In this document: in pieces, positions 9,745 through 54,614 of the stretch
Position numbering within the stretch: the stretch's first letter is position 1
Layout of the letters: each line of letters begins with the position of its first letter
DNA from: a bacterium ADurb.Bin243
GTDB lineage: Bacteria; Muiribacteriota; UBA9980
NCBI GenBank assembly: GCA_002069765.1
Contig: MWBZ01000003.1
Coordinates: forward strand, 1 to 64,000
Length of the DNA stretch: 64,000 nt
Reading direction: 5' to 3'
The notes under the pieces: model-generated
Database searches by the model: none
What the model was told of the DNA's origin: nothing
Seen by the model: only the letters and a program-made list of their open reading frames with translations
Translations under genes and position numbers: made by a program

Positions 9745-9794
9745 AATATACACTCCACAACTCTACACTATCCACTCTCAACTATTATTATACA

Positions 9795-12700
9795 CTATCT
9801 CATTTGATATGGCAAGAGTTCGTTTAACGGTTTCACCACGTCCATGAGTTTTCCGTCCGGGCCTTTTTCACTGAGCGGCCCCAGAATCAGGGTTTTGTCG
9901 TGAGTATATCGGGTGGCGTATTTAGAACGCTGAAGCTGCAGTCCGTCAAAATAAACCGACAGGCCCGAGCTGGAATTTACCTTCGGATACATGTAAAGTA
10001 TGTAGCGCTTGCCTTTAACCAATCCGTTGCCTCCGACAGGCGGATAGAAGTGTATAAACACGCGTTTCCATCTGTTAAGGTTTCTTGCGCGCGTTCCGGC
10101 AGTTGAAACGGTTTCGCCCGGTTTGATAACAAAGTTTTTATATTTCGGATGCAGGCGCGGCGTAGACGAAGTTTCATAATAGTTGGTTTCGGTTATGTCG
10201 AAATTATTCGCCTTGTTATTCACCAGGAACGGGACCTTTCCGCTCTGATACGAATATACGTTGCCTAGTAAATCCAGGCCTACCACAAATTTAGTTTCCG
10301 CGCCGAGCGGGGTTCCGTCGAGATCGAACTGTTCAAAAGCTATTTCAGCCCTGTTAGCGCACACTTCGGAAGTGCATATCGGATGATGATTATTAACGTG
10401 GTTCAAAAACGACGAATAGCTTTGAGTCAGGCATTCGCTCTCCAGGCAAGTCATATGCGACGCATGGCCCGGAACCGGATTGTGAGGTTTATCGCAGTAT
10501 TTTTCGAAGTCGATATCGGAGCCGACTTTTATCCAGCCAGAAAGCACGAAACCAGGATGCTTTTCTTTCAGCGCTTCGATTGAAGCGGCGCTGTTATAAG
10601 CATCGATATATTTATGAATGATATCTTTGTCGAGCTCCTGATAGAAGTAAGTGTCCGCAACGCCGCCCCACAATTTGGGTTCTATCAAGCCTACCGCAAC
10701 GGATATCGTTCCGGTCGGATTGCAGGTCGCCGGCGAAAGAGGCGCTACTTTAGACTGATTATCTATATCGGCCTGATAAGTAAGCTGCAATACTACGCCG
10801 CTGGTTTCAACCGTCAAAAAGTGCCTGGATACGCCTTCGTAAAATCCTAAAGGCTCTATATTGGTTATAGAATAAGGAACTTCACCGGAAGGCGGCACAG
10901 ATACCGAGTCCTTAGGCGTCCGCAAGTATGTCTCTTTTGAGCCGTCGGCGTTGATAAAGCTATCTTCGATTTCGACTATGGGATAATTGCTCGGAATCAG
11001 CGCCACCGATGCAGTTTCATGGAAAACGTGATCGCATACGTTTCCGAACCTGTCAACCAGACTGACTGTAATAGTTTCAGGCACCATGCCTTCGAGCCTT
11101 TCAAGCGAGTTATGGGCTTCATCGCCAATTTCAAGCTTGTAAGTCGTGTAATCGCTCTTATCGGCGCTTACCGTCACTTCTTCCGAATCGCTTTCGAACC
11201 CGGCAGTAAGCCTGTTATCTATTATTTCTATGATCGATTTGGTGGATTTGTTTTTATTATACTTCCTGTCCGGAGTCAAATTATTCGATGCGACCATATC
11301 CTGATAATAGAATTCCGCCGCGCCATCGTTAATTTTAATCGAGTTGATCTTATTGCCGCTAATGTCATAGAAACCCCATCCGGAAACAGCCGGATCGTCG
11401 TAATATACCGTCATTCTATTGACGGCGCTATCTTTCGGCGAAGCCTTGAGCGCCGCCATGAACGCTCCGGTATTTGTCATCGGATTGGCCCATCTGTCGG
11501 TCGCGTCGATATGATACTTGGTATATAATCCGGCCTGAGGACCGCTGCCCGGAACTAGATTTCCATTTATGGAGCTGAAAGTTCCGACATCCGATATTTT
11601 TAATTTGCCCGGCGCCGATGAGTGCTCCACTTCTATTTGAATCTGCTGCGAAGGTTTTGCCGTTTTAAACTGTGATTCAATGGTTGAGTAGCCGTATATA
11701 TAAGCGGTTAATGTAGTTTCTACCGTAGCGAAAGTATCGTTATACCATAAAGATGATTTCCTCGTTTTAATTATGAACTGATGCTTATCATAATCTCCGG
11801 CGTTAGACATAAGCTTGATTCTTCCGGCATCTACATAATAAGTAGTTCTGGAAGTGTTATCGGAATAATAAGCTCCGGATATTTTAAACGGATGGCCGTC
11901 GGAGAAATTTCCGGAACTGCCCAGAGCCACGCCGACGGGTTCGGTTTCGGCTGAAGCCACTTCCCATGGATACCAGCCGGAATCATTGATCGGATCCTTA
12001 ACCTTATCGTTCGTATTTTGGGAATTCCAGTATAATTTAGAATTAACCGTTGAATCGTAATTATACCTGCTCAAGCTTTCTCCGTCGATAGAGAACGTAT
12101 GCTCGTTGATAAAACTTACTCCGACGGCTTCTGAATCGGCCGAAGAATATATAAGGTTATCATACTCATCGCGCCTGTCGAAGCCTATTAAAATACCTTC
12201 ATCCGCCTTGAACGAATACATTTCTTTAATCTTGCCTTTTTTAATTTCATCATAAGTCAGCTCGTTGTCGAACTTGAGATGATGGAATACGTTAGGCCTG
12301 ATTTCGATATCGGCCATAGCGTTTTGCGAATATGACGGAGAGCTTATTACTATCTGCATATCCGCCCGCCCGTCTTCGGAGTTTATATCACGGGTTTCAA
12401 AGTAAACTACTGTAATATAGCCTTTCGACCACATCGAATTGACCCCTATAGAGTTAGGCTCGAGCACCGCCATTTTAGTGTTTTCGCTTAATTCGAAAGG
12501 AGCGGCCGTAGTCACGCCGTCTTCGCCGCCCTGATAAATTTGAACGCTCGCCATAGGATCGTTAAAATTACCAGAAGCGTTGGACGTATCGAATCTTACG
12601 AAACCCGAATCGTCGTCGTTTGTGACTATATCGAAGTCTTTATCGGCTGAAACTATATAGAACGTTTGAGTATCGCCCGCTTTAACAAAGGGAGCCCTGT

Positions 12701-15700: not shown

Positions 15701-18700
15701 TTCCGCTGAATTCAGTATTTTTGTCTATTTTCACGTTCGAAGCCGTGTAGTTCGGCGACCACGGCGACCATGCGCCCGTATCCGGGCTTCCATAACCGTT
15801 ATCCGGGCAAAGCCTGGTATTATAGAAAACTCCCGTAGAAGGCTTTCTGGAATGGTCGTCTTCCCACAGGATATTAGAAAATTCTCTCACGTGCGTTCCA
15901 AGATCTATAATCGGCGAAGTATAAACGCCTTTGAGCTGGTATATTGAAATATCGGTATAGCGCGCGCAGCATATATTGTTATTGCCGAGCGGCGAACCGT
16001 CCTGCCATGAAGCGAAAGTGATCAAACCGTCGGAAGTCGAACAAATGGAAGGTTTAACCTGAGCGCCGTTCTGGTAAAGGTTATTCACTTTCGTTTTGAC
16101 TTCGAACGTTTCATCGGCGTACTTCGAGAAATATATATCTTCGTTTCCGGATTCATTCACTTTTGAATCCCACGCAAGCATTATAACTTCCTGAGCTTCT
16201 TCGTTCAAGCCCACGGTTATGGAAGGGTTCTTATCGATATCCGGCGACAGGGTGACGTTAGTATCGTCGAAAGTGCTTCCATAATCTTTTGATTTAGCGT
16301 AGAACACGTCGTTCGAACCGCTCCATGTCAGATAAACGATCTTATCGTTCAATCCGGCTAAAACCTGAGCGCCCGATATTTTTTCTCCTTCAGCTCCATT
16401 GATAGGAACTTTATCGAGAATTATCGTCGATGTGATGCTTCCTTTTTCGGAAGAGCCTTTGCCGAACATAACATTGCTGTTGCCGTCTTTAGTTAAAACG
16501 CAGGCCGCATATACTTTATTCCCGACACGATCAGCCGAAATACTTATGTTGGAGAGGTCGCCGTCGTATCCGCAAAGCGCGGCGACAATATTAGTATCCG
16601 AAAAAGCGGTCATAGCGTTTACCTTTTGAGTTATTGCCGCAACGGAAAGGTTATAATGTATTTTACCGCCGGATTCCCATGCGATATAAACATGGTTATC
16701 TTTATCAACCGTTATCGAAGGGTTAGCGCAGCCGGTCTGAGCGCCGCTGACGATAACCGGCGTAGAGAAGCTGGTATTCGATCCTACAGGCTCATCGCAA
16801 CCGTCATTCATCGAAAACATTACTTTGCCGCTCTTGATAAATGCCATGTAAGCGCGTTTGGATTTAGACGACGTGACGGCGAATTGTGTGCCTTCGCTAA
16901 TCACGTTTTCTTCGCTGTATTCCGTGGCGTCTTCGTCTTTTGCTATTTTAAAGTAAATTTTTTGAGTGCCCGAAACGTTTTTCTCATATACTACAAGAGG
17001 GTAGGTATTATATTCGCTATTGGTAAGTAAAACAAGTGAATGATTCGAATTGCCCATCGCGGCGTCGTCGCCGGAATCCTCAACGGCTACTTCACCCGCG
17101 AACTTGGATATACCGGTTTTGACGAGACGATGTTTTCCCTGCTCAACGACAAGACAGTATTGATCATAAGCCGTCACGCCCCTGAGAGCGCTAAGCCCCG
17201 AAGTTCCCGTAAATTTGTCGATGTAATTAAGGTTTAAATCAAGTTTTACTACGCTGTTCGCGGCTGTGCCGCCCTGAGTGAAATAAAGGAAATCAGGCGT
17301 TAGAGTTATGTACTGCGGCTTTGTAACACCGCTGGAATACTGGTTTTGATAAACCAGAATATGATTGGTAGGCGAAGATTTATCTATTTTAAATTTTACT
17401 ACGCGATTGTTTAAATTATCGCAAACATATACATCTATGCCGTTAGTCGTTATTCCAACGGGCCCGTTAAGAGCCGCGGGCCCCTGCAATCCGGATATGG
17501 TTAAATTTTTATTGAACTTAATAGAAGTACCGTCGTCTATCAACTGGGCTATATTATTGCCAGAAGTTACCAGCAGATAGTTGGCGTCATAGCCGGTCGC
17601 TCCGTTTGCGGTTATTCCCAGTGACCGCGCCTTGATCTGCACGTCGTCGGTCGAAAGGCTTATACCCGCCGAGTCTACTACATAAACACCCTGCTCATTG
17701 TAATAAACATCTTTAGGCGAGTTATATAAGCCGTTAGAGGACGTTTTAATAAAGCTCAGGTCATTTTTAAGCATAACCACGCGGTTATTCCCCGCATCGG
17801 CCACATATACGTACGCTCCGCCTATAGTGACGCCCATAGGAGACGAAAGCCTGTCTTCGGTGTTTCCGGCCGTTCCGTCGCCGAATTGCGACAACTCGTT
17901 CCACTGGACTTTCTTGGCTACGTCGCCGGTTACAACGATCCTCGCTTTTCCGGTTTCGCAGATATAAGTATAATAACCGTCGGTCGAAATACCGTTAATT
18001 TCAGTAAGGTCGTCGGTAATTATTCCGCCCGGATCTTTATTGTTTTCTCCCATGAATATATCTTTAAAGATCAGATAACCCTTATCGTCGATGTCGAGTC
18101 TTGCTACTCTTTTTTTACCGTTTTCAGAAATATATAAATAGCTTCCGTCGGTAGTGATGTCTCTCGGATCGTTTGTAACGCCCGCATCCGCGTATGTAGA
18201 TCTTAAAGTTAAAGAATTGGATAGATGGAATATCTTATTTCCCTTTACCGAATCGATATTGAGAAGATAAACATTATTTCCGTCGGCTGCCACCCTCAGT
18301 TTTGTCGACAAAGCTTCTCCGCTTAACTCGGCCAAAGGCGTGCCAATAATGGCTAACGATTTATTGAGGGCCGTTAAAGTTCCATTTTTAGTGGTGAAAT
18401 ATACCTTCTGGCTATCAACGGCTATGGAATTGGGACTTTCTACGGCATATTCGGCATATATCCTGCTGAGCGCAAGATCTACTTTTAATATCCTGTTTTT
18501 TCCAGTATCGGCTATATAAACGAATTGGCCGTCAGAAGCGATTCCTTCCGCCTTGGACGCGAGTTCGTTATTTTCCTTGAGTTTAGCCATGCTGGAACTA
18601 AGCCTTATGATATTGTTCGAACCAATATCGGACATGAATATATTTTTTTCGGTCGCCGCTATCGCAAACGGCTTGCTGTACGAAGGGCTGCCGGGATTTT

Positions 18701-21700
18701 CACTGACGCCGCCCCATTCGACGTTATTTCTAAGTCTTATATTGCTCGAAGTTCCGCTGCGTATAACGCTGACTTCTTTAAGCGTTCCTTTAATGAAATC
18801 CTGACGGCTTACCGAAACCACCTGTTGGTTGAGCGTATTCGGAATGCCGCCCTTGATGTATATTTGAAGTATATTTTTTACTTCGGTCTTGTTGCCTGCG
18901 CGGTCGGTTAATTTTACATGAATGTCATAGTTCTGATCGCCCGCCACGTTATCGTTCGGATTTATTTTCCACGACGCGACAACCCATACTTCGTCGCCGC
19001 CGCCGGCATAAGGACCTGTATAGCGCCTCAATTTAAAATCGTTTCCGGGAGTAGCCTGATCGTTATCCGAATCGTAGGTGCTGCCGCCTTCAATGCGTAT
19101 TTCACCGCGCGTAAGGTTGTTGGCGCTGCCCGGATCTTCAAAGTCCTTGACGTCCTGTTCGGAAAGCGATTTTTCATCGAGCCTTATATAAATATTAATT
19201 AAGCCTTCTTTTTTATTGAACTTCGTATCTATAATACCGTTAGCGACCGCTTTGGGGTTGCTTAAGTCGCTCACCTTCGGCGGAGTGTTATCGATAATAT
19301 ACTTGTAATAGTTAAATTTATCGAGATTTTCGGTGTTTTCGGTATTGCCGAGATCGTCGGTAGATTTAAATTTGATCAAGTATTCGCCGTCGCGCTTTTG
19401 TCCGGCGACCAACGGTATATCGAGCGCGCTGTTTTTCAAAAACACGCCTTCGGTAATTTTAGCCATTACGCCGTCGATATCTTTAGACCACCACCACTGG
19501 TAATCGATTACGCCTTTTTCGTTCATGGCAAGCGAAACCGTGGGGAACGTCAAAAAGTAACCGAGGCCATAGTAAATATCGATACCGCTTGGGTTTCCGT
19601 CGATAGTTTTCAGGAAACTCAACTCCACGCTTTTCAGGCTGGGAATATTCGCGGAAGAATCCGTTAAAAACGATACTCTGTACTGTACGAGCTGATTCAC
19701 GTCAAAAACGCCGCCCGGCCTCGGGCTTACTATATCCAGCAGAACGTTATTCTGCTGTACTATATTTTTCCACTCCGTAGGAATAGACATTACGCCATTA
19801 GACATAAAGGCCTGCCTGATTTCAAAACTTAATCCCGAACCAAGAGGTATATCGCCTTTATAACTTAAAATTTTGAGCTTGTCTATGTGGCTGCCCATAT
19901 TAGCCCATGCAGAAGTATAAACGCCTACGTTATTTCCTGTTTTAACCATTCTATGGTTCACAAAGTCGTTGACGTAAATGTCGCCGGAGAAAACCGTTAT
20001 GCCGGAAGGCTTGTTAAAGTGAGTATCATCGATTCCAAGGACGCCGCTTTCGCCGTATTCGCCTTTATAGTTCAAATAAGGATCGAGTTTTATTACTCGA
20101 TGATTGTTCGTGTCCGAAACATAAACCTGATTTCCAGTAGAGAACATTTTAGAAATATCTGAAATATTCAAATGAGAATCGTCTTTATCCGGGCTATCCG
20201 GCACACCGAACCTTATCTCGCGGCCATAATAGGTTTTAACGCTTTGCAGATCGAGCTCCAGTTTTACTATGGTATGGTTATTCAGCAGAACGTAAACGCC
20301 GCTCGCATCCGCGGCGACCGCAATCGGTTTTTTATCGAACAGCATAGACTGGCCCGTTCTTATAAGCTGGCCGTCGGTTTTTTCTTCGTATTTATAAATC
20401 GTCTGGCTGTTGTAATCGGCTATATAAAGCTGATACTTGCTGCCGTCGAAATATGAACATATATCGTAAGGTTGAACAAGGCTCGGCAAAAATACGCTAT
20501 TATCATAAGTGTACTGGATATTAAAATCTTTGCTCCAGATCAAAAGTATTCTTTTTGCAGAACCGCTCGAGTTAACCACATAAACGCAATTTTTAGTCAG
20601 CGCGATACCTTTCGGGTTGGACATTTCATAGTTTTTATTTTCCGACAGATATTTCAGGTTATTATTAAGTTTATAAACTACGCCCTTATTTGTGACATGT
20701 CTGCTCAACACGAAAATATTGGAATCGTCGGAAGCTAAAGCCGTAGGCTCATAGAGCCTTTCTTCGATAGCGGTTCCCGACATGCCGGTCTTACCGAACT
20801 GCCCCTTATACTTCCATAATGCCGAAGAAGTTTTAATTATCTTTTTGCTGCCCACATCGATGAAATAAATATCTTCGCCGTCGGCATAGATGCTTCTGAT
20901 ATCGTTGAGCGGAACGGGAGTTTCGTCAATCACAAATTCCTTAACGAAAGTCAAATAACGGATTATAGGATTGATAAGGAATTTAGAAACGCGCATATCC
21001 GAAGTTTTATGAGCTACGTAAAGATAGTTTCCATCCGAAGTGACGGACCGTATGTCGCCCATAAGGTTTCCCGCGCTCGCAGTCGTAAAATACTGAAATA
21101 CGTTCAAATTTTTATCGAGCTGAACGACCTTATGAACGCCGTCCAGGCCTTTTTCCGCGATGTAAACGTTAGCGTAATCCGCGCTCACCGATACAGGTTC
21201 TTTAATCGGGCTCGCAAATACGGAACCGTATTGAGCGGTAATATTGGTAAGATTGATATTTGTTTTAAATACCCTGTTATTTCCGGTATCGGCGACATAA
21301 ATTTCTTCAGTGCCGAATATAGCCATGCTCATTGGGCCGTTCAAACACTGCGGAGCCGACGAAGGCGAATTAACGACGCCGAACATGGCTTCTATGGTAT
21401 CGCCTATTATCGATGCCGCCGCCGCATTTTTATTGAGCGCGACTCTGAACAGCACATGAAGCTCTTTATCAAGGATAAAAAGCTTGTCGTTAAAAGGAAT
21501 AAAGGCGACAGGCGATTTTAAAATTACCGAAACTGTGCCGCCCGGCATTAAAAATGTATTTTTAGTAGTCTTAAGTTTTCCATCGAGGAATTTTCCAATT
21601 ATGCCTACATTCGAAGCGTCGCAGACATACAGATATTTACTGTCGGCCGAAACATAAACAGGCGTGTTGCCGTTTTCAAGAGCGCAGTCTTTGTTGTACA

Positions 21701-24700
21701 TCCACTTCGACATCATAAGTTTGTCGTCCAGAATTATTATACCGTCGCTATCATGGCCGGGAAGTGTGAAGTCTTCTTTTGACGAGTGTATTATGCGGTC
21801 ATTATATGATTTAGGTTTCGTAGAATCCAGATAAATTCTCATATAATTTATATTAGATAAATTTCCCGCCTGGTCGCTGCATTTTACATATATTATATTC
21901 AAACCTTCAGTCAGAGGATAATCCGTTACGCTGTGCATAAGATAATCAGCCTGGCTGGCATCCGTCATTTCGTTCCACTTCGAAGAATCGGACGGATGGG
22001 TATTCAAATCCGCCGTTTTGTTCGAAACGATTACCCTTCTTGCTCTCTTATCAAGCGATTCGACTTTAACTTTGAAATTAACCTTCGGAGCATTAACATA
22101 ATACGCGTTATTTTCGGAATCATATTTCGACGCAGACTCCAGAATTATTTCCGGCTTGCCCGGAGGCGTCTTGTCGTAACATATTTCTATAGTTTCACCG
22201 GGCTGAGAGTTGCCTGAAAGATCTTTAGCCCAGGTGGCAACGCTGTTCGTGCCTTCTATAAACTTGAAGTTAGCAAGCGCGGCCGCCGGCGCTTCAGTTG
22301 TAATTACCGGTATTTTTGTTCCGGCCGCAAAAGTGAATTCTTCGCCGCCCGGTTTGTTGTTATCGTTAATAAGAGTTATTTTAACTTCGTTCCATTCAGC
22401 CGCCGACGCCGTATACGCCGGAGGAGTCGTGTACCAGCCAGGCCATGAGTTTGAAACGCCAGGATAGATCGGCGCTCCGACAAATTCATTTGTGTCCGTT
22501 GCAAGTCCTTCGCCACGTTTGAGGAATTCGACTCTGAAACTTTTCAAAATCGGCGTAACCTGTTTATCAACGGTAGTCAGGGTCGCTCTGTACTGAACGA
22601 AATAATGGTACTGACCCGCAAAGCCTGTAGTCGAATTAGGCTGCGAAGGAAAGCCTATAGCCGGGAATTCACTTCCGGTTTCATCGAGAGTCATCCATCC
22701 GTTTTCGCCGTCATAGAAATCAAGTGCAGCCGTATGAGCTCCCAGAGTGCTTATTTTATCCGGATAAACCCTCATTTCAAGTTTGACGCTCGTTTTCGAG
22801 CTTCCTTCAAGGATGTAATACACTTTATCTATTTGACTTACATGAGAGCCTATATCAAAAACTTCTGAAACATACTTACCGGAATTTGTATAGAAAGTAT
22901 CGACGGCGTTCAACTTATAAATTTTATTATCGTCACTATCCGCAACAAACAGATAAACCGATGACGGCCCCTGTGACGAAGATATTCCGCCGACACTTGA
23001 AAGCTGAGCGTATTCTCCTTTTATTTTAAAGCCAAGAGAAGTCATTACTATTTTGTTAGTTCCAGAATCACCTATGTACAAATTAAGTCCGTCGGACTGA
23101 ACAAAAAACGGATCGCTCAAAGCGGAATTAACTGAGCTGTATTTAAAAGAATCCGTTAAATTAACGGTAACTCTTGTAATGTCTTTATTGGCGACATAGT
23201 AAACATAATAGCCGTCGCAAGCTATGCCGCGCATATCTACGCTGGTAGCGAGCTGATCGAGATATTGCATATTCTGAGAAATTAATTTAACTATTCGCTG
23301 ATTACCGGCATCAGAAATATAAAGATATCCGTTAGACCACGCTACATCAAAAGGCTTGTTGAGAACGCCTGTTCCGCCGTATTGGCACATATAAGTCAGT
23401 TTATGAATAGGCGACGACTGATTATACAATTTGACTATTCTGTTATTTTGCCAGTCGGAAACATAAAGATATGTTCCGTCATATGTCAAGCCAAGAGGCG
23501 TGTTAAAATGTTCTTCATCCGAGCCCGTTTCGTTTTCTACGCCGTATGAAGCCACATATTCAATGATTGCCGGTTTTTCATCCGTCGAAATAAATTTAGT
23601 TATAGTGTGTTTTTGAGAGTTAGCCACGAAAATTTCAAACATTTTAAGGCTCGAGTTATAATAAACCGCAGTCCCCCTTGGGCTGCCAAGATGCGAATCA
23701 TTCGATGAAGCCACAAACCCGAAGGTGTCGTTAGCCAGAGTGACATGGCCATAACGATCTACCTGCGTGCCGTTGAACGTTCCGCGTTCAAAGTCGTATT
23801 TTCCGCCGTGCTCATAAGATTTAACGCGCATAAACGGCGCTTCCGTAGCTTTTTTCTGGCGAACCGTATCCCATACCTTGAGCGTTTTCTGGCCGGAATA
23901 GTCTTTAAATTGAGCGTAAATTCTCTTGATACCGGTCTCTACCGTAGAAGTGAAATTAAATAACTTAGCGCTCGTATAATCTTCCCAGGAAGCATTGTTA
24001 AAATCAGCATATTCAGAAAGTATCATCTTCAGATGAGCCGGAGCATTAGTATCCATAACGCCGCTCAAATCGAGATTTACTTCGTTAACACTTACAGGGG
24101 CTGTTTCCATAACGCGAATCGAAGGATTGACAGGCGGAACGGTATCCACAGTATAAGTTATAGACGGGCGGCTGGCCTCATCGTGTGAAAGGTTATTTAC
24201 CCAGTCTTGAGCATAATAAGTTAAAGTATTGACGCCCTCTGAAACTTTGTAAATAACCTCGTTAGCGAATTGAAAAGCGCCGGCATTCCAGCTATAATAT
24301 ACCTTTCCATGGTCATCGTGGTCTAAAGTGCCATAAACAGGAGTCAAATAGTGGCCGCTAGCGGAGCCCGCCGCTACGACATCGCCGTCACTGCTGCGTT
24401 TGTAAGTAAATATAGTCGATCTGATACTCGGAGTCTTCTTTTCATCGTTGGTGGATAAAACTATTTTATACTGAACAAACTGAGTATCAGACAGGGCCCT
24501 TCTGTTAATGTAGTTGTTACCGATGTCTATATTGGCCACATCCGGAAGAACGGATTTTTTCCAGTCCATCCAGTAACGGCCGTCATGGCCGATATCGCCG
24601 CGGCCCGGAGCGGTTCTTACATATAGTTCTATACCCTGTGTGGAAGCCGGATCGTAATGCACGTATTTAGTTTCGGCTTTTAATCCGGTGCCGCCCATGC

Positions 24701-27700
24701 CTTCTATTATAGGTACGACATAGTTGCCAAGGCTTATAACGCGCGACAAATATTCGCCATAAGGAGCGTACTTATAAGATTCATATTTAACTTTTATTAC
24801 GCGGTTATTAAGGGTATCGGCGACTAAAACATATTTATTCGCCGGCGTCTTGATGCATGAAACGCCCGAAGGACTGTTAAGTATGACGCTTACGGTGCCA
24901 AGCCCCGTAACCCCGGCATATCCCATCGTGGATATGTAATTAAGACTGGAATCCATATGAAGCACTCTATGGTTATTTTTATCAGCAATAAAAATATCTT
25001 TTAAATCCGGAGAGATAGTTACTGCGGAAGGAGCGTTTAAAGCTTGCGCGAATCTGGAAGCGCCGCCGTTCACATTGTATTTTAACACGGAAGCGGGCGA
25101 ACGCATATTCTGCACTTTATAAAGCTGGTTAGCCCCTTTATCTACGACATAAAAATATCCGCCGGCATATTTAACGTCGGTTACATTAACAAAACCTGCT
25201 CCTGCGCCCAATGAAGTTATAGCTTCCATGAAAAGCATCGAAGAAGAGTTGTAAATAAGCACTTTATCTCCGGCGGCAATATACAACTCGGCCGGAGTTA
25301 AGCTCTTATCAATGCACATGCCTCCGGCGTTTTCTATAGGCATAGCGGGCGCTTCGGTCAACGTATCTTTAACGTACATAAGATTTCCAAAGTTATTTTT
25401 AAGTTTTATGATCCTCTTGTTACCGGTATCGGACACATAAATATAAGCCGCTACCTGATCGACCGCATCGGGAATAACCGCCGATGGCAGGTTCACATGT
25501 CCGGTATCGGCGCCCGAAACTTCGGTTACTCCGAATTGACGGTCGACAAGCATAGTCTCATTATTTATTTTGAGTATTCTATGGTTAAGAGTATCCGCCA
25601 CATAGCTGTATTCCGAATCAGAAGCTATCATGTTCGGTTCATGAATTCTAAAAGGATTATCCTGTTTGTTATGACCGGCAGGCGAATATGTGCCATCCGA
25701 AGAACCGAGCGTAGATTTAATATCGTATTCATCGATCATTTTCGATATTGAAACGATTCTTGTATTATTGAGATCCGAAACGAAAATCCTGTCGTTATAC
25801 CCCGAAACTGCAACGGGATTATTAAGATCCGTAGTAGTTCTGGAACCATAACTCGAGATAAACTTAAGGCTGTAAGATAATCTGATTATTCTGTTATTTT
25901 TACTGTCGGCGGCATATACATAACCCGAATCCTGGCCTAAATACATGGGTTCGAACAGGTGCGAGTTGTCATCGGACGAAGTATTGTATTCGCCGAACAC
26001 TTCCAGAGCGTTTCCAGAAGAAAAATCCGAAGCGTATTTACCGATAATGTGGCTCGTCGAATCGGAAATTATAATAGATTCATCATCGGCGGCTATGCCG
26101 GCGATTCTGGTCATAGGCGAACTGCCTATTTTAAAGAAATCGTAAGGTTTGCTTGCAACAAAACTCAAGCCTTCAAGGTTTACTTTTACGATGCGCTGAT
26201 TGCCAGCGTCGTTAATGTACATGTAGTTTCTGGATGAGTCTATCGCGATATCTTCCGGCGAATCTAATTCGCCGTCAGCCGAACCGTTACCTGTAAGCGA
26301 ATCATTGCCGTAAACGCCTATTTTAGTAAAATTTGATTTGAGCAATTTATAGACGGAATGTTTTTTCTTGTCCGACACATAAACATAAGTTTCATCGACA
26401 TCGACGCCGCACGGCTCTGAAAACGCCGAAGCCGATGAAGCGATGAGCGTCTGCTGATTGATTTTATAAAGTTTCTGATTTATGCTGTCTGCGGCAAATA
26501 TATAATTAGCGTCAGCCGCTATGCCGGACGGCGAACTCCAATTAGTGCCAAGGCCTGTTTCGGAAGTATATTTATTAAGAACAAGAGTGTTCTTATACCC
26601 GAGTTTCAATTCGAATGAATCATTATTTAAATCTACATAAGTAACGTTAGTAAAATTACCTCTGGAATAGTCGGCAAATTCGGAATCGCCTATTTTATAT
26701 AAATTTGCATTAGGTTTGTAAAGATCGAGAACCGCCGAATCGGATACGACTTCGGTAGTTTCGCCGTAAGGGCTTTCAAATTGAGCATAGACGGTAACAC
26801 GGCCTTCTGCGGCTGCCGAAACGCCGTCGGCAGCTTTAAGCGTTTCCGTCACATTTACCTTAAACGGGCTGGTAGTATATGAAAGCTCGTCTAAAAGCGG
26901 AATCATTCCAGGGTTACTTGAAATTTTAATCTTGCCGGGCATTAAATCATCGCCAAGCACGGCGGGATTAAGCTGTAAAGTAACGGTAGCGTCGGTTACT
27001 ATGCGGTCATCGAGAGGCGCATCGCCGTCGAGTATTTTCACCCATGCGTCTTTTCCGCCCTTAGCGGCGAATTTAAAGAGTTTTGAATGCGTAACGGATT
27101 CCGTATCGCCTGTTTTTGAAACGCTGAACCACTGAAGGTACTGCGGTCTTTCATCGTTAACTTCAAGAATATATTGAGGTTTATCGATGTTAAAAAGGGT
27201 GGTCGGATTAAGCACTTCAAAAGTTCCAGGAGCTCCGGGCGAGGCGACCGAAGACCAGCGGTATAATATTTTATCCAGTTCATTGTTTTTAGCGATATTA
27301 ACAATAACAGGATTTTCAAAATAACCGGAACTTCCATCCGGATCGTTCGTTAAATCGTAAGCCGCCATCTCCGATTTACGGCTAAAAAGCAACTCTATGT
27401 CATCTATTCTAGGCAATATGCCCGAAGTCAAAATTGTGGATAGTTTAATTTTAAACTGAACGAACTGATAATCGAACGGTGAAATGGTGTTACCGGTTAT
27501 TAACATATCCTGCCAATCCACCACTTCGGTAGTGCCGCTGCCCGCAAAGCTATGCGGCGCGCCGCCTGCGTTCCATTCGCCGGCGTTAGAAAAGTCCGGG
27601 GTTCCGTCGCCTTTATCAGGAATAGCGCGCAGCCATATTTCTATAAAAGTATCCGCGTCGGCGAGCTGAGTCCATCTTATTTTGCCGAACGGCGACTGTT

Positions 27701-30700
27701 TTATATGGCTTCCGACCAGATATACGGGCGAAGTATAGTAACCTGCTTCGATTTCACCCGTATTCTGTGAATAATACTTCAAACGTAAACTTGCGTCAGG
27801 ATAATTATATTCAGTTATATATTGGGCATTATACTTATCGCTTACGATTACCGCCGCCTCAGGCGAACCTGTCCTGGAAGTAATCGAAGAAGTGCCGTCT
27901 TCGAAGTCGTGAACAGACGTAAGTTTAAGAATCAAGTCTCCGCCATTGACGCCAAGTTTTGTATCGTTATCTATCGTAGGGCCGAGAAGCGATGTAGAAG
28001 GCGGGGTTTGATCGAAGATTATTTCGTCGGTAACGGGTCCCAGTATCAAGCCGGCGCCGTTTTTATAACGCGCATAAACCATCTTTTTACCGTCGTAAAC
28101 ATCGGGCACCTTATTGCCGGCGCTATTGAGGTAAGGCGTAGTATAGCCGTCATAATTCAAGTTATAATTGAACAGGCCTACCGTATTTGTTGAAAGCTCC
28201 CATATACTGATAGGATTGGTATCGGAAGTTTTCATTTTCTGCCATGAAGCGTCTTTAAAATCGGGCCTGTTGGATATCTGGCGGTACATGCAGCCCGTAA
28301 CTTCCATAGTCGCATCGACAAACTGAATATTGGTATATAAGTCGTCGTTGTGTTCCGGGAAAACGATACTCATATATTTATTTTCCGTGGACGTGGAACG
28401 GCTTATATCCAGTTTAGGAGCGCTTATAGGTGAAGTGTTTATATAATAAACGTAAGTTTCTCTGGTTGTTTCATTAGCCGCAAGGTCTATCGCCCAAACC
28501 GTTATTTCGAATGATCCGTCAAAGAATGAATTATCGAGAACGATTTCCTGCGTTTTATTAGATGCGTCCTTGCCAAGGGTTATAACACCGCCGGGATTAT
28601 GTTTGGTAGAAGACTGATTGGTATAAGTCACTCCGGCGAGCTGAACCGCTATGCTGCCAGGAGTTATAACGGTGTTGTAATCCAGCGTGAGTGGGTCATC
28701 CGCAGAACCGCCTGACATTCCTCTGGAATTTTTCCAGTAGTATCTTATATACATCGGGTTATCGAATGAAGATTTGGTATTGTAACCGAAATTCATACGC
28801 GGCATGGTTTGATATACGCTGAACCATACCGGAGCGGTATCGATGTTAGGATCGTCATCATAAGCTCTCACGCCATCGGCAAGTCTTTCGAACGAGAAAC
28901 CTATTTCGGGAATTCTCAAATAACCGTCTATAGCGAAACGCGCCTGAACGTAGAGAACCTCATCGGAACCAGCGGGCCAGCCCTGAGTTTTATCGCTAAG
29001 GGCAAAGAATACGCCGCTGACGCCCATGGAAATATCTATTTCAGAAGTAGCGCCATCGAGAGTCGCACTATCGACGGTTACCCAATCGGTCCACGAAGTA
29101 GCGGAATACTGCTGCGTGGTGCCTCGTCTTAACTGAATTGCCGTTACAGGTTTTGGAGCGGCCGCAGTCATGTCGGCGCCTGTATCCGAAAGCCAGTGTA
29201 ATTTTTTCAGTTCTTTGATATGCGAACCAAGATTTATTATCGGAGTTTCATAAGTACCGGAATTAGACTTCGGAATATTAATGCTGTCGTTTTCGATAGT
29301 TATGTTAGCCGTTTTAGTGCCGAGCGCAAAATTAGAATTTGTGGTTATGTAAACACGGTCTTTATAAAATACCGGTATATCGGTGACCACGTAAACTTCT
29401 TCGGATACGAGCCTTATAACACGGCCTTCCGAGCCGTACCATGCATATATCTTTTTAGTGCCCGATTCTTCGGTGTCTTTAAGCGTCCATTTTAGTTCGG
29501 GATAAAAATATTCCGCCGCTTTTTCAGCCCTTAACCATACGTTGGTAGTAGAAGAAACATCCAGGCTTACAGGCTCGGTTTCATAACCGAGAGGCGAGGC
29601 GCCTACAGGCTCAAAACCTACCGGCGCAGTTTCAAAATTAGAAATATACACCCAGTCGCCGAATTTAAGGTTTGTATCTATTAAAAGGCTTACTTCCGCA
29701 GTCTTCAAGACGTTATCGCCGCCGTAGCCGTTTTTGCTTCCAACGGAAATTTCCGAAGTGTATTCGAGAGAATTATCTTTGTCCGTTCCAAGCGTAGCGC
29801 CGTCGCGATCGACGATATGAATTCTTATTTCACTGGTAGGTTTCATATCGTCCATAAGAGGTATGAACTCGTGAGAAAGTTCGACGTTACCGGAATCCTG
29901 CTTATCCAGGAAGAAATCTTCGTATAAGCCAGACTCTTCTTCATAAGTTAAAAATACGTCTATATCAGAAGATTTATAACTTAATTGTTCGCGCCACTCA
30001 CGGTCGTCTTCGGGGATAGTATAAGGCACTTTATATGAAACCAGGTTCACACCGAGAGTGGATGCGCCAAGCAAATGGTCGGGTTCGGCATCGTTGGCCC
30101 AGTTGTAATAAATGCCGGCGCCGTGGCCTTCAGCATCGCGAGCATATATAGTAATATCGGGTTTAGCGTAATACCATCCTATTTTCTGAAAACCTCCGAC
30201 AGAAATATAATCGGCGTCCTGAGCCGAATCTAACTGAGTGATCTTTGTTTCAATAAGGTCGTTTGAATCTTCTATAGTTTTGCCGAGATACGAATCGCGC
30301 GCCCAGAGGCAATAAACCTCGTAATTACCGGCGTCGGAAGCTCTCGAATAATAAATACGGTCGCCGAGCGGGCCGTAAACCGGCGATCTGAAATTCCACT
30401 TATCGGCAGGCGTAAGTGTTTTTATCCACTTTTGACCGGTACCGTCTTCGTTCATAGTCATTATTACGCTTATAGTACCGGTTAATGGGGCGTCGGCGCC
30501 TATCGCTACAGCGTCGGTTTCCTGCAGATATATTATTTTTTTGCCGTCAGGCGAGAAGGTCGGGTCTTTATCGTTATCTTCATAAGAAGTGAGCCTGGTG
30601 CTTTCGCCTCCGCCTGAATTTATAAGATAAACATCGTATTGCCCATCGCCGACATCGGCCATATAAACTATTTTATAACCGTCGGGGCTTAATCTAGGAT

Positions 30701-36700: not shown

Positions 36701-39700
36701 CCGCGCAATTAGCGGTTTTGTTGGTGAATCCGCCCTTTGACAAATCTTCGAAATTGACCTTGTACTTATAAGTAGTATCGGTCTCGAATGTATCGCTATT
36801 GGTCCATTTAAGTTCGAAAGACTCGGCGCTGGTATAAACGGGCAGCTCGGTAAATTTAGTTTCAGGCGCCTGCGCGTCCACCCTCAAATCTGTAATGATA
36901 GCGTCAGGGTTTTGCGACCTGATTATCGGTATCTGAACCGGATTATAAGTTACAGCGCCGCCCGGAAGGTCAACTTCGAGGCTCGCCATGGCGCCGCCGC
37001 TATGTTCATAATAATACATATCTATTTTATGCCAACCGGCGGTTAAATTTATATCCTGAGGCGTGGTATCCCATGTGGTCGGCCCCTGGTCCACCCATTT
37101 ATTTATTCTCAAAGTGTCGTCTATATAAAATTTAACGCCGTCGTCGGTGCGCGTTCTGAATCTGTAATTGCCGGCTGTTTCAGCGTTGAACTGTCCTGTC
37201 CAGTGTACTATAAATTCATTGGGAGGAACTATATAAGAATTATAATCGTCGTCTATTTTAGTGGGCGATTCGTTGCCATAGTCGCTCCATACGGATTGAT
37301 CTATACGGCGCAGACGAATTTCATGAGTATCGTCAGGGCCGGCAGGGCTGGTCATAATAAATGCTCTGTAATAAGTGCCCAGAAAACCCTGGTTATCCTG
37401 TCCGTCGTTTTCGTAATCCCAGCCCCTTACGTTTCCCGAACGGTCGAAGAGTTTCGCGCCTATATCGTAAACGCCGCTATCGGGGAGTTCCACTTCATAC
37501 GCCACTTCTACTTCGTCGGTCCAGCCAGCCATCTTCCATGTGGTCGAAGGGTGTTTTCTGTACCAATATTCAATTTTACTAATATGTGAGGTGGCGTCGC
37601 CGGTATCCAGATCGCAAACCGGATCGTACGCGTTGCCTGTTTCTTTATTCGGCCCTATCGGCCTGATTTTAAGCCTGGTAAGATTGACGCTGCTGCTGTC
37701 GGCGTATTCGTGATTGATCGAAAAATAATCCGGCGGCACGAAGTCCATACTAAACGAAAAAATCTCCGAAATAGTGGAGTTTGCGACGGGTTCATTCGCT
37801 GTGTCGTATGAAATGATACGCCAGTAGTACGGGCCGTTGCCCGATAATTTATTGGCCACAGGCAGAGTGAACTTGCCGTCTGCATAATCTGTGTGAACGC
37901 CTTTAACAAGGGCTTTTTTATAGAAGAAAGAGGCGAACGTAGGGCTCGTGGATATCTGAATTTCGATGCTTGCCATACCCGAAGCGGCCCCGGCGGAAAG
38001 CGGGTCATCGGGAAGTTCCCATTCGAAAGTAGGAGTTCTGGTATTTATCCAGTAAGCGTCGTCGCCGGTATCATAAGGCGAAGCGTTACCGGGCGCTTTA
38101 AGACCGGCAGCGGTAGGCGCGGTTAAATCCACCCTGAACCACGCGGTATCCGACCAGTCGGACAGCTGGTCGAATTTATCTTTAACCCTTACATGCCAGT
38201 AATAATATGTGCTTTCGGCAAGCGCGGGATCGCCGGCGGTCATTTGGTACCTATCGATAAAAGCGCCGGTATAAGGCAGCGTTTTATTCACGACAAGACC
38301 GGTAAAAGCCGCATCGGTGGCTACCTGCACAATAACTTCCTTGGTGCCTATGCCGTGAACCGTCGGCGGATCGTCGAGCGAATCCGCGCCGCCTTTCCAG
38401 CGAAGCAGCGGCCTGGCAGAGCTTATCCATTTGGTTCCGGTAGTATCGCCGGGGCTTATTGCGACTGGTTTTTGAGGCTTGGTAGTATCGCACTTAAAGC
38501 TCCATACCGGCGTCGTATTGTAATTACCGTCTTTAGCCGCGCCGTTGAAAGCCGCATCGGCCTGGCCGGCGGCGTCGAAGAAGCGCACGCGGTAATAATA
38601 AACGGTGCTGTCAACGAGATTAGCGTTGTCCGGCGCGGGCGCGGCGGGTATCGTATAATTTAAATCTGCCGCGTTAACGCCGTTATTGCCGCTATTCCAT
38701 TTAATAGTTCCAAAACCGGCGGCCTCGGATATTTCTACCTTGTAAATATAAGTGGCGAAGAAAGGCGCAAGTCCGGTAGGGTTCTGCCATTGCGAACCGG
38801 CAAAACCGGCGGCCTGGCCTTCGGGATCTATCTGACCGCTCCAGTTTAATTTGGGTTTCCAGGTATTTACCCAATGCGAAGTTCCCGTAATAGCTATAGG
38901 AGCTTTCTCCGTGCCGGAAATAGAAGGCGCGTTAAGCGTAACTTCCGGCGAGGTCATATCGAATTTAAAGGTTTGAGGGTCCGAATCCACATAATTGAGG
39001 GCTTTATCGTAAAATCTTACTTTCCAGTAGATGGTTTTACCTTCGTAAGAAGCGCGGGCCATTACCGGAACGTTCCAGGCTGGCGACGCCGCGATTACGG
39101 AATTAGCGTCCTGAGTGCCGGCGGTCGGAACTAAGTTGTTGGAATTAAAAATAAGACTCCAGCCGGCAGGATCTAAACCCGCGCCGAACGGGGTATCGGC
39201 AATATAAACGATGTAATGGCCGGCGCCCGAGCCTCCGGCGTTATCGACGCCGGTATTCCATTTTACATTAAATGTGTTCTTGTCTATCCACAGTCCGTCG
39301 CCGGGGTACGAATGCGTAACTTTGGTGGGGTCGTCGTTTTCAATGGTAAACGTCATGGCGCCCGTGTAATTTACGTTACCTACGTTATCTTCTACGCGAA
39401 CCATCCATTTAACGCTATTGCCGTTAGCGAAAGTTTTGGCGGTAAATCCGGCGTATCCCGTATTTACATCGGTTTTAAATTCAGGCATCGTAAGCTGCCC
39501 TCTTAAAGCCGCGACAGGATCGCCAGAGTCGTATTCCATCCCCGTATTCCACGCGGTAAAACCGACGCCCGCCTGAACGCGGTAAGAATATATACCGGAA
39601 CCGGCGCCGTCGGCCGCGCTTACTTCGGAACCGGCTTTTTGCTGTAAAGCGAGAGGCGAATCGATTTTACTCTGGCCGAAGGTAGGAGTGACCGTTTCAA

Positions 39701-42700
39701 CGCAATTATGCGGAGTAAAGTTTGCCGCTGTAATAGCGGGAACGGTTTTGTCCACTTTAATTATGAGATCGCCGTTGGCGTTGCCGCTTTCGGCTGTATT
39801 AGTGTAATCGGAATAATTTACGTTGGTCGCGTTATCGCGGACATATATACGGCAATAATATGTGCCGTCGGCGAGCACCGAAGGCATAAAATTGGTTGTA
39901 GTAGTAGTCCAGCCTGAATCGTAAGCCACGTTAGCGGGAATAAAATCAGATGTGGCCGGTTTTGGAGTCTGGGCAGTGCATACCAGAAATTTATATGCGC
40001 CGCCCGAGTTGAGGCCGGAACCGTCTATTCCCGCGGGCGCTTCTATAACTACCGTGCCGTCAAAACGAGGCTGACCATAGCGGGTCCAGTAATAATTCGA
40101 GCCGTCTGTGTATTGTAAATACTCGGTCGGCGCATGCTGAATTGAAAGGACGGGCGCCGAAGGCGGCTGGATATCGTAATAAACGGTTTTAAGCACCGAC
40201 CAGTTAACGTTGCCTACGCTGTCTTTAATGTATATGCGCCACTGATAGTAAGTTTCGGTTTTTCCGGTAAAATCTATACTGCAGCCGGTATTTAAAGAAA
40301 GGTAATCCATCCAGTTGGAATCGAACAGAGTGTCGTTGTTGCTTCCGTCGTTCTGCCAGCCGGCCGCCGCAACTTCGCTGAACGGATCGGCGAACGGATC
40401 GGGACCCGGGTCGTCTTTTTTCTTGAGTAAAACCCTGTATTTTTTAGCCGTAATAAAAGCGGAAGCTGGATTTCCGTTATCGCTCATATCCTGCGTCGCG
40501 CCTATATAAACATTGGCAACATTCGTATATAAAGTATTGGTGGACGAATATGAACCGCCGTATTTTTTGATTTTAGCTTCGGCATCAGGAACGAGCGTCG
40601 GGCGGCTTAAATCCACGCGGAATTTTTGAATGGTCGTACAACTTACGTTACCGTTGGCGGAAGCTATTCCGGTATTGGCGTTATCACGAACGTATATTCT
40701 ATAGTGATATTCGCCGTTAGCGAGTTCGACATCCGATGTGGTAACGAAGTTAACCCATCCGGAATCTATAATATTAGTTCCTTCGTCAAGGTCCACGGCC
40801 GAATCCGGATCGACGCTTAAAATAGCGTCGGCCTTGCCCTGGGTGCTGTTGATGATAATAATCCTGTAGCAATTAGCGGAAAGTTCCGAACGTATTCCGG
40901 CCGTTCCGTTATCCGCCGCCACCGCGGCCCATTTGAATTCGTCCAGGTTCTGGTTTCTGGTCCAGTCGGCGGGAGTGCCAAGACTGCCGTTACCGGTGTA
41001 ATGCACCGGCGAAAAAGACCACGTAGCTGGAATCGGCGGCGCTATACCGTCGATCATGATATTTTTGTTATTTGCAAGAGATCCGCTGGTAGCGGCCCCG
41101 ACCGGCATAGTAGTTAAAACGGCTAAATTATCGGCCGCATCTTTTACGGTTCCAGCACCGCCGGTGAGAGAATCGAGTATGCAATCAAACGGATTCGCTT
41201 CATGAGTGGCGCCTACGGTATAAGCGAATGTATATACCGAATAAGTATTCGGCGCTATACCGTCGGTGCGCGCAGAAGACCAGTTCACAGAAACTCCGCC
41301 CGCCGCGGTATTAACCTTGATAACTGGCGTAGCCGATTTTATTACGGGTTCTGAAAACTCGGTTTCGACATTAACTACCGTATCCTTACGATATTTTCCG
41401 CCCGTAACCTGCGGCGAAGTGACATTTTTAACCATAGGCTCGGCGAGATCGATCACAGCGTCGTTATCGTCTATGTATTCAAGGTTTGTATTGCCTGCGG
41501 CGTCTTTCCATAAACCAGCGGCAATGCCGCTTATAGAAGACGAACCTGGCGCGGTATTAATAGTAACCTGATCGGCGATGCCGGTTATAGAAACTACGCT
41601 CGAAGCGCCGGAGGGATCTGAAATAGCGCCTGCGGTAACGGCCTGGCCGTCTGGAAGCGTTATAGTTCCAAAATCAGCTAAGACGGGCGCGGCAGAATCG
41701 TCGGTATCTACGTTTTCACTAAAAGTAATGTCGATTTTATCGATCTTGCCGTCATGCGCCGGAACGGCAACCGTATCGTAAATTTTCAGGCTGGTTATAA
41801 CGGGATAAGCGCCGTCCGCGAGAGTTACTGCGGCGCCTTCGGCTTGAGTATAGTTTGTAGCGGCGTCTCTTAATTTGTTAACGCCTATATATTTTAAGTT
41901 AGGAGCGGTAGTATGCGATGTTTTGCCGAACGTCGCTTTCGTTCCCATAGTAATCGTAATTTCATCGGCTGCGACGGCTACCGACCCGGCTGCAAGCGCC
42001 GCGCCGGTTAAATCGTTATTGACCAGAGTAAAGTCGGCGACACCCGTGCCGTTTAACACTGCGTTTTCAGAAAGAGCAAGCACCAATTTGTTAACGCGTC
42101 CGGTAGAGTCGTCGTTTATATATTTTCTGGCGTAAATAAAAGGCGGCGCGCCGTCGGACGGAGCCGAGTCGTAATTGATTATAGTATTGCCGCCGGCGTC
42201 GAAAAATGCGTTTTTAAAAGATACGTTTGGAGTGGCGCCGGTATCGTAAGCGGCGCCTTCGGTGAAATTTATTCTGGCCGCATTATCGTTAGCGCCGCCG
42301 CCGCTATCAAAGACGGGATTAGCATAACCGGCAATCGTAACGTTAGCGGCAATCGACGAAACGTCTAAAATATTTCCGGAAAAAGTGAAAGCTATACGGT
42401 CTATTTTACCGTTTAAAGTAACAAGATCGCGTGTGTACGCGGCGCTCACCGTATAAACCGAACCGTCCTGGGCAGAAAGCGGCGATTCGTTAGCGCCGTT
42501 AGCGGTTGAATTTATTATGGTATATTTTGGCGTAAACGCCGTAGTGTAAGAAGATATATCGCTGTCAAAAAAAGTTCCGGCGGCGACAGTTCCCAATGCA
42601 TCGAGAGCAACGGCGCCTTCAGCCGAATGAGCGGCGGCCGCGGGAATATGATAAAGTTTTATAGCGCCTGAATTAAAAATAGCGCCGAGGTTGATATTGG

Positions 42701-45700
42701 TAGTAACTTTAGCGCGGTAGCCGGTGGTGTCGTACCAGATGCCGAGGTTTGCCAGCGTAAGAAGCGCGATATTGGGCACCGTGCCGTCAACCGCGAAATC
42801 GGAACGGTTATCGTTGATATCTTCGCAAACATATTTAGGCCTGAACGCGGATGAATAGCCGGCGATATCCAGGTCGAACTTGCCGGTAGCGGCAAAAGCT
42901 TTACCGGTTCCGTCGAGAGTTATTTTACCCCTCGGGCTTGTAATAACATTATCGTACAGAGTAATAGTTCTTCCGGCAAAATTAGCGCCCAGATCGATAT
43001 CCGATATTATATGGCCTCTGAAGTTTTTATCCGCTAAAGAATATCGGACTGCCGTTTTATCTATATCTATAATGGCGGGTACCGTGCCGTCCTGACGCCA
43101 CGGCGTTTTATTGCCCGCCGTGTCGTATAGCCTGTAATGAATCTTTTCACCGGCGGTTTGAACGGAGCCGACGGTCAATATATTCGCCCCCAGAGCGGCG
43201 CCCGATGAATACGCGGCTTCGCTCGAGAGAATGCCTGAGCTGTGCGCAGGCGGCGGATCGCCCACATAAATTTGCAGTTTGGCGTTTTCGGGATATATTA
43301 TAGCGCTTATGGCCCTCGTTTTGAGTTCGGCGTTGGAATAACCAAGAAGGGCCGCCAGATCGAGAGTATCCATTAAAACAGTATCCAGGCATCCGGCTTT
43401 ATTAACAGACGCCCATGTAGAAGCATTGCCGGCGGCGTTTTTGATCCATGACTCTATTAAAATATTTCCGTTCATAAAAGAGTCTATTGCGCCGGCTGCA
43501 AAAGTTCCTCTATTAGCCGCGGCCGCAGCGGCGGCAATGGCGTCGCCGGCGGTCGTGTATGTATTGGGGGTGCCTGCGGAGTCGCTAAGCTTCATGTAAA
43601 TGGTTCCAGCTTCGTTGCCGGTAGCGGTATTTGCGATATTTAACTTAAAATTATTAAAAGCGTTTTTGAGGTCTTTATTGATATGATCGACGGTGTTGTC
43701 GCAACCGCCAAGGTCGGCAGCGATAGCCGATGCGGATATAACCGGAGCGGCGGGAACCTTTCCGTCTTGAACCCAGGCGGAAATATTTCCCGCGCGGTCT
43801 TTAAACCTGTACCATACCCCGTGGCCGGCAGTCATAGCCCCAATTCCGGTAATAATATCATCGCCGGAAACGTGAGTGGAGCTGAACGCGGCTTCCGATG
43901 CCGTAGCGGCAGTTACGCGGGTAGGCGGAGACGCGATGGCGCCAATATAAACTTCGAGTTTGGAAGGTTCGGGGTAAGCGTCGCCGCCCGTAAAATCTCC
44001 GCTTGCCGTAACCTTTCCGGAGGCGTTATCGAAGCCCAGCTTATTTATTTGAGCCGCCGTGGGATCGGCCGGCTTTATTGTGTCTATATTAACGGTAAAC
44101 GAAGGCGCGCTGCTTGTTTGATTACCGGCAACATCTTTGGCTTTTACATACCATGTATGAGCGCCGTCAGTCAAGCCGCACTGATAAAGCCTCGTAACTT
44201 CTGCAGGAGTGAGTGCCCGGTTATATACTCTAAACTCGTCTATTAACCCTTTGAAATTAGCATAACCGAGCTCAGCCGTTTTACCGATAGTAAGCGGGTT
44301 ATCGTTATTATAAAACGCGCTGCCTGCATCGGCCGCATTATATATTTCGGAACCATCAACATAAATAATGGCCTTATGAACGGCCGTTCTGTCTATAACT
44401 ACCACAACGTGGTGCCAAACACTTTGAGAGGGAAGAGTTCCGTTAGCGGTCCGATGATTGGTTGCGCCGGCCACGGTTGGCGCTGAAGCCACATACATCC
44501 AATTATTGCCGTTTGGGGGCAGCCACAAAGAATAAGTTCGGTTGGCATAACCGCCGGTAACAGTGCCGCCCTTATGGAATATAGCCGACCAGTTTGCCGG
44601 CTGCACATCTCTATTCATCCACAAACTAACAGTCAGCTGATTTGAGGGTTTTAGCGATGCGCTGCTCGGAATGCTTATATATGAAGCGCCGGTGCCATCA
44701 AACAAAGCGGCCCGGCCGAACTTTCCATCTGTGTAAGATTCGCTCCCCACCCATGCTCCGTCATTGGTGCCGCTCAGATCTCTGGTTTCGTCATCGAAAC
44801 CATAGCGCGCCACCAGGCCGCTCGTAACGTCTGAAGCAAAAGTGTTCGTAGTTAAATATTCTTTTGCGACGGCATCGGCAAAAAACTGATAAGGCTCGGT
44901 TAAATGCATTCCGGAACCGCCAGTATCGTTTGAATTCGTCCATGTAAAAGTGGGCAAGCAGGTATTTACCCAGGAATTATCAAGAGGAGTTGAATTTGAA
45001 AACGCAGCCGGCGCTATGTTATCTATTGTGTAACTTGTCCTGCCGGTAGCCGCGGAATTTGCCCATCCGGCCCTGTCGGAGGCTGTGATGGTTACCGCCT
45101 GCGCGCCGTCGTTTCCGGCCGGAACCGTCCATTGATAGGTCCACACGAGATTACTGGTTTTTACCATGGCGGCATTAGTAACCACCGAGCCTATGGTGAT
45201 TTTCGGCGTCGCCGTTTCATCTATACCGCTGGTGGCGTCAACGAACGTGGCCGTTATGTTAACAACTTCTCCCTGCCTTACAACCGCATCGGACTGATCG
45301 TCGGAAAGAGTGACGGTTGGGGCGACTGTATCGAGCGTAATTTGATCAGATTGCCAGGTATAAGGCGTTGCCCATGTGTTCCAGTTGCCGACGGCGTCTT
45401 TAAATGCGACATAAACCGTTTGAAGACCTTCAGTGGCAGGCAATGTAAGGGCGACATCCGTAGGATTCCCAGGATAGTTTGTATCTGCAAGCGTTGTGTT
45501 AGTGTATAAATGGTATTGACTCACTCCGCTCATGGCATCGGTAGCATTATCAAGAGTGACGGTGACATTTCTGGATTTAGTATATGTATCGCCGTTGTTG
45601 ATTTTTATGGTGTATCCGGTAGGAGGCGTCAAATCTACCTTAACCGTCCATAAAGGCCCATTGGTTTTTACATTGCCTGCCTTATCTCTTACCTCGACTC

Positions 45701-46727: not shown

Positions 46728-47266
46728 AAAACTTCCTCCCGCACTCAATCAATCTATAAAAAAATTATTAACAAATGCAAATGCCCATTACAGGGCCGGT
46801 TTTTAACGTTCGAAAAATATCGCGCCATAAACGGACGCAATATCCCGTCAGAATTTGAGCAAGAATTGAGCCAAAATCATTGAAATTATTGAGTATATGA
46901 GTAGAAATCAAGCGGGAGTAAGAGAAGTTAAGACCGGTAACCTTTTGAATTTAAAATTTATGTATATATATAACAGATAGCGTGTATAAAATTATACAAA
47001 AAGGTCGGCGGTTGCATTTTTATATTTTTTATAAACGGCACGGATGAAAATTCAAAAAATCGTAAGCGCTGTCAATGTTTTTAAAAAGATTTGGGCGGTT
47101 TTGCCGGCTGCGAGGCGAAGCCGAAGCACAAAATAAAATAAAAAGCAAGTGTTAAATTTTTGACAAATGAGGATTTTTATAAAATTCCTATTTAATAATT
47201 AAAAACCTAAAGATTTTCGAACGGCAAAATCAAACGACGGCTTACAAACACCAACTTTTTGAATAA
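46728..47266. other. Upstream region of the giant gene, no gene seen
   Basis: About 540 nt of AT-rich DNA without a convincing ORF. On the minus strand there is a TATAAT-like hexamer (46991-46996) without a good -35, and a TTGACA (47070-47075) without a good -10, so the promoter of the giant gene is not resolved. A long 5' leader is possible. No known riboswitch was recognised. Confidence 0.5.
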
Positions 47267-47468: not shown

Positions 47469-47693
47469 ATGAATTATAAAGAAAGAATAACGGCAAATCC
47501 ATCCGTAATGCTTGGCAAGCCCACAATAAAAGGAACTCGAATCACCGTCGAACTTATATTAAAAAAAATGTCTGAAGGCATGGAAATAAAAGAATTGCTC
47601 GATGCTTATCCAAATATAACCCGGGAGGATGTTTTTGCCGCTCTCGCCTACTGCGCGGAAGTAATGTCTCAGGAGGAATTGCTTGCTTCATAA
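47469..47693 (+). CDS. DUF433 family antitoxin-like protein
   Basis: The 74-residue protein is a complete DUF433 member: ITANPSVMLGKPTIKGTRITVELIL, then GMEIKELLDAYPNITREDVFAALAYC. This small winged-helix-like family is commonly encoded next to a DUF5615 (PIN-like) partner and treated as the antitoxin of that pair. AGAGGAG precedes the ATG. The downstream partner frame is broken, so this gene is an orphan that may persist as a regulator or relic. Confidence 0.88.
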   Translation: MNYKERITANPSVMLGKPTIKGTRITVELILKKMSEGMEIKELLDAYPNITREDVFAALAYCAEVMSQEELLAS

Positions 47694-54613: not shown

Positions 54614-54614
54614 T

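Follow-up and report, generated by a model that had tools for sequence, protein, structure and literature searches.

Giant open reading frames of bacteria are often poorly conserved, and their functional unity and the roles of their ends are usually unclear. Proteins longer than 5,000 aa are surveyed in PMC11573180. In the Omnitrophota, as described in PMC10066038, giant frames reach 39,678 aa (V. archaeovorus LiM), lengths above 20 kb are common, some of the frames carry LamG domains, and cell attachment is often proposed as their role. Giant1-5 of Apilactobacillus kunkeei appear in PMC12863079 as very large extracellular proteins of 3,000–8,000 aa. Since the Omnitrophota frames are that long, size alone is not new, and the first-pass annotation of the gene considered here, which had placed it at the extreme for bacteria, does not hold on this point.

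The gene in question is found in a window of 64,000 nucleotides, the stretch of contig MWBZ01000003.1 that was analysed. We compared the genome of the window (G000) with those of its closest species (G001), Candidatus Wallbacteria GWC2_49_35 (G002) and UBP16 UBA6123 (G003), all of the same genus. The giant gene is on the minus strand at 9795–46727, stop included, as are the other features below unless noted. The frame runs from ATG at 46727 to the final sense codon at 9798 and the stop at 9795–9797, and its 12,310 codons are uninterrupted, as the first-pass annotation had it; an alternative call of 12,317 aa uses an upstream TTG start. The good ribosome site claimed earlier is also there, GGGAGGAAG (46732–46740), a few nucleotides 5' of the ATG. 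The N-terminus is a clear Sec-type signal peptide, MKRQSSQKAFKLINIIILSLTFVIFALLGSANA-Q (residues 1–34, 46626–46727), recognised by its hydrophobic segment and kept in the closest species and UBA6123, with the cleavage site placed by eye; the earlier claim of secretion thus stands as predicted export. In a hydrophobicity scan of the full length the signal peptide is the sole hydrophobic window, and no membrane anchor is seen beyond it. The mass of the protein, estimated from its length, is about 1.3 MDa.

The UBA6123 orthologue has 13,421 aa (40.3 kb) in one frame on one contig of 80.7 kb. It is collinear with the protein of the window and aligns with 62% identity over residues 1636–12310 and 40% over residues 1–889. 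In GWC2_49_35, a contig of 21,498 bp is open over its entire length (7,165 aa), and a C-terminal piece of 3,004 aa is situated at a contig edge. The closest species has one C-terminal and one N-terminal piece of the gene, each at a contig edge. In every 500-residue segment compared with UBA6123, the third codon positions differ more than the first and second. The dN/dS ratio is 0.06–0.24 wherever it is computable, dS against UBA6123 being near saturation, and 0.08 over the C-terminal 544 codons against the closest species. The comparison of sister species shows that the gene is intact and, since third-position changes predominate throughout, that the whole frame is under purifying selection along its length.

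The gene lies within a 130-kb contig of a draft metagenome assembly (5.0 Mb, 317 contigs), and the draft state of the assembly is what speaks for an artefact fusing several genes. The probability of such a fusion is negligible: the collinear orthologue occupies a single contig of another genome, the 21.5-kb contig of a third genome is fully open, and the divergence is synonymous-dominated along the whole frame. As the orthologues exist in separate genomes, misassembly is essentially refuted. The search for full-length homologues, proposed in the first-pass annotation as a check, has thereby succeeded, and the misassembly or frameshifts that it named as a refutation are answered against.

The N-terminal zone, about residues 34–2000 (40728–46628), is remodelled, as seen from a drop of identity, extra propellers and the replacement of the tip domain. 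Identity to UBA6123 is 0.36–0.45 over approximately the first 2,000 residues and 0.51–0.78 downstream. Three NHL propellers in the front zone of the UBA6123 protein, apparently set inside Ig-like domains, are absent from the protein of the window. In the first mature domain, 78 of 79 residues (99%) are the same in the closest species and UBA6123, whereas identity to the window's protein is 32%. Since the tips are 32% identical although the leaders are 94% identical, the protein of the window carries a tip domain unlike that of its close relative. The simplest reading would be replacement of the whole tip domain between species, the tip piece of the closest species being just 112 residues long and ending at a contig edge. 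The same domain in the closest species and UBA6123 differs by 23 synonymous and one nonsynonymous codon changes in 78 codons, with nucleotide identity of 0.89. Hence the tip shared by these two is an old, strongly conserved allele, and a recent DNA transfer between them was dropped as an explanation.

The extracellular domains listed by the first-pass annotation are supported in part. Pfam finds two PA14 domains, one at the tip (46248–46622, PF07691, E=1.7e-11) and one at about residue 3158 (36957–37262, PF07691, E=3.2e-12), a LamG or concanavalin-like domain at residues 680–844 (44196–44690, PF13385, E=2e-28) and, in the first quarter of the protein, Big_13 (45633–45878, PF19077) and Ig domains. 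A PD40/TolB-type propeller is seen in two stretches, with the best repeat near residue 5377 (30528–30599, PF07676, E=1.3e-12). The claim of a sialidase-like propeller is not supported, as the protein has no Pfam match to the BNR/sialidase family, and jelly-rolls have sub-threshold support only (InhA-like MAM, 24.8 bits with the cut-off at 26.9). The propeller-rich second half is confirmed: a profile of the repeat, derived from the protein together with its orthologue, yields 27 NHL-type repeats in four arrays, and by sequence this region is related to NHL and Pizza propellers in the PDB. The arrays span residues 6729–7332 (24732–26543; Pfam, repeat profile and PDB relatives), 7739–7953 (22869–23513; repeat profile), 8354–8950 (19878–21668; Pfam and repeat profile) and 9350–9844 (17196–18680; Pfam and repeat profile). 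The linkers between the arrays resemble one another, though at low identity (7416–7556 and 10351–10527, for instance), so that the second half has the look of a block duplicated long ago. A match of one propeller to the CIS12 contractile injection system protein (NCBIfam NF053768) scores 42.4 bits, the curated cut-off being 860. IMG/VR gives no relative.

Downstream of the propellers, residues 10501–11400 (12528–15227) form a strongly conserved block with 74–76% identity and no family match. Among named genomes it occurs at two loci, in UBP16 UBA6123 and Candidatus Wallbacteria GWC2_49_35, and a phylum-wide profile search gives matches in the genus only. A ThuA/amidotransferase-like reading of about 10880–11080 comes from inspection by eye and is not put forward. 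The AlphaFold models, each built from three sequences, for residues 10770–11175 (mean pLDDT 36) and for the C-terminal module (mean pLDDT 42), are too poor for use.

Each of the four species has exactly two genes with the C-terminal module, residues 12026–12310 (about 285 residues, 9798–10652): the giant gene and a gene for an exported-looking protein of about 550 aa, of which the module forms the end. Elsewhere in the phylum the module is barely detectable. The restriction to two carriers per genome points to a shared site for a partner or an anchor and away from a tag for export in general, and the reading as a general secretion tag was dropped. A VWA-like reading of the 550-aa protein was by eye only, with no Pfam or PDB match. 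The C-terminal 300 aa of the giant protein have no family match, and nothing at this end is recognisable as a known anchor in the outer membrane or tag for secretion. There is no C-terminal outer-membrane beta-barrel of a type V autotransporter among the Pfam matches of the protein, and NCBIfam lists no T9SS C-terminal sorting domain for its final 2,310 aa. Neither does the protein resemble a polymorphic toxin, as no toxin family matches it and its C-terminal end, far from being variable, ranks with the best conserved parts.

The gene directly 3' of the giant gene in four genomes out of four encodes a single-pass membrane protein of 222 aa (9076–9744). It starts 50 nt downstream of the giant gene and is conserved at 83–92% identity. 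In all four genomes it is followed by a small conserved gene of 141 aa (8655–9074), whose TTG start is one base past the stop codon of the 222-aa gene, and in the window an intrinsic-terminator-like hairpin with a 15-bp stem (8562–8599) marks the end. The three genes probably form an operon, with the giant gene first.

Taken alone, the 222-aa protein of the window matches GspG with E=0.023 and geopilin with E=0.2, and its score against TIGR01710 is 14.7 bits with the curated cut-off of 88.85. The profile of its family, which includes one canonical pilin that may carry part of the signal, reaches E=3.6e-8 at best in the PDB, where it lines up at mature residue 1 with type IV pilins and with GspG. 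The 15 top-ranking PDB chains comprise type IV pilins, GspG and pilus-like chains, mostly aligned at mature residue 1, a few of them less specifically named. Like type IV pilins and GspG pseudopilins, the protein has a conserved RG, with the prepilin-type G followed by a conserved N-terminal hydrophobic helix, and its relatives bear canonical N_methyl motifs. Unlike them, it has no Glu at mature position 5 (GVLLFG), and the match is confined to the N-terminal third. Glu5 is absent from some minor pseudopilins as well. The pilin-like assignment is weak from the single sequence and appears clear from the family. An identification as Wzy_C was rejected (20 bits with the cut-off of 31.7, over the region of the hydrophobic helix). 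At several loci in related families the pilin-like gene has no giant gene beside it. Standalone pilin-like proteins from other families of the phylum (L085:272-898, L086:1655-2251, L088:467-1093) have the pilin helix followed by an EN..S.SFE motif, similar to the start of a carbohydrate-binding jelly-roll. In GWC2_49_35, three consecutive pseudopilin-like genes (L092:2601-4055, minus strand, G002:C62) lie some 9 kb away from the gene with the shared C-terminal module.

The 5' leader of the giant gene (46728–47003) contains the ribosome site and a perfect 16-nt palindrome TGTATAATTTTATACA at 46983–46998. Leader identity is 281/300 (94%) with the closest species and 239/297 (80%) with UBA6123, and the leader is more conserved than the first coding domains of the gene. 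The palindrome with its flank occurs once per genome in the window's genome, the closest species and UBA6123, always ahead of the giant gene. Its uniqueness to this leader in three species suggests that the giant gene may have a dedicated regulator. Upstream of the ribosome site there is also a short hairpin (GCCC/GGGC) that shows compensatory changes. Rfam gives no match at the gathering threshold in the window, and in the leader the matches are weak and chance-like. Further upstream, the intergenic region contains a 74-aa frame (47469–47693, plus strand) resembling, by eye, DUF433-type antitoxins. It is followed by a gene for an AAA_14/DUF4143 ATPase (47816–49147, minus strand) and by an island of metal or cofactor uptake (53864–58968, minus strand, and 61291–63998, plus strand) with a TonB-dependent receptor, an FecCD-type ABC transporter, FmdE, ExbB and TonB.

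On balance we lean towards the giant gene being the first of a probable three-gene operon and encoding a Sec-exported, cell-associated giant adhesin with Ig-like, lectin-like and propeller domains. The signal peptide would carry the protein to the periplasm, and a machine similar to type II secretion or type IV pili, aided by the pilin-like protein of the operon, would move it across the outer membrane. Six secretin-bearing reading frames in the window's genome and the linkage of the pilin-like gene to the giant one are the grounds for proposing this route and this helper. The conserved C-terminal module would hold the protein at the cell, and the exchangeable tip with PA14, LamG, Ig and propeller domains may bind surfaces, polysaccharides or other cells. 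The best reading of the orientation would place the variable tip outward and the conserved end toward the cell.

The same great length, numerous beta domains and lack of a recognised anchor would also suit a structural coat or matrix protein, one that wraps the cell in an extracellular layer instead of acting as a specific adhesin, and a giant frame of the Omnitrophota has been proposed to be coat-forming (PMC10066038). We consider this unlikely, as the remodelled tip with its strongly conserved alleles suggests a specific binding surface and no S-layer family matches the protein.

A secreted multi-domain enzyme or scaffold degrading polysaccharide or prey cell walls, with the propellers being catalytic or guiding the substrate, is quite improbable. 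LamG and PA14 do occur in carbohydrate-active enzymes, NHL propellers can be enzymatic or sensory too, and the conserved 900-residue block has no known fold. The weak lactonase, arylesterase and gluconolactonase-type matches over the propellers are accounted for by the shared propeller repeat, and no glycosidase, lyase or peptidase family is above the threshold anywhere in the protein. The block-like architecture could also be that of a polyprotein, translated whole and then cut into several mature extracellular proteins, the more so as a clostripain-family (C11) gene (L018:8415-9665, minus strand, G000:C34) adjoins the other gene carrying the C-terminal module. However, judged by eye, the catalytic cysteine seems to be missing from the clostripain-like protein, with DAN instead of DAC, and we regard processing of this kind as very unlikely.

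For this putative giant adhesin, the comparison of sister species provides selection along the whole chain, a fast-changing front, a stable body and a candidate partner for export or display. The N-terminal remodelling, the shared C-terminal module and the pilin-like neighbour had not figured in the first-pass annotation. How a megadalton protein is exported, and what its tip does, can thereby be tested in specific pieces.

The giant gene shares with those of the Omnitrophota (PMC10066038) a single frame longer than 20 kb (here 36.9 kb), an uncultured host and adhesion-type domains (here LamG, PA14 and Ig). The Omnitrophota proteins commonly, not universally, have several or many transmembrane helices, whereas in the present one the signal peptide is the only hydrophobic segment. 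The Ig-repeat adhesins of the LapA, SiiE and RTX kind are likewise very long extracellular strings of Ig-like domains. In contrast to them, the protein has a Sec-type signal peptide, diverse non-identical domains and many propellers; since, moreover, the Pfam and NCBIfam scans of its C-terminus give no RTX/T1SS family match, the type I route is unlikely. Giant1-5 of A. kunkeei (PMC12863079) are also giant surface proteins and take a notable share of one locus; their host belongs to a different bacterial group, and the likeness drawn here is one of description. It is a tentative and rather doubtful proposal that Candidatus Wallbacteria have a hitherto undescribed class of giant surface fibre, with a propeller-rich megadalton shaft that depends for its export or display on a dedicated co-transcribed non-canonical pilin, and with an N-terminal tip swapped as whole domains between species. 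Giant surface-attachment proteins of other uncultured bacteria are already known, and the present protein is most likely one of this kind; what sets it apart is a composition rich in propellers, together with a conserved pilin-like partner and the replacement of the tip.
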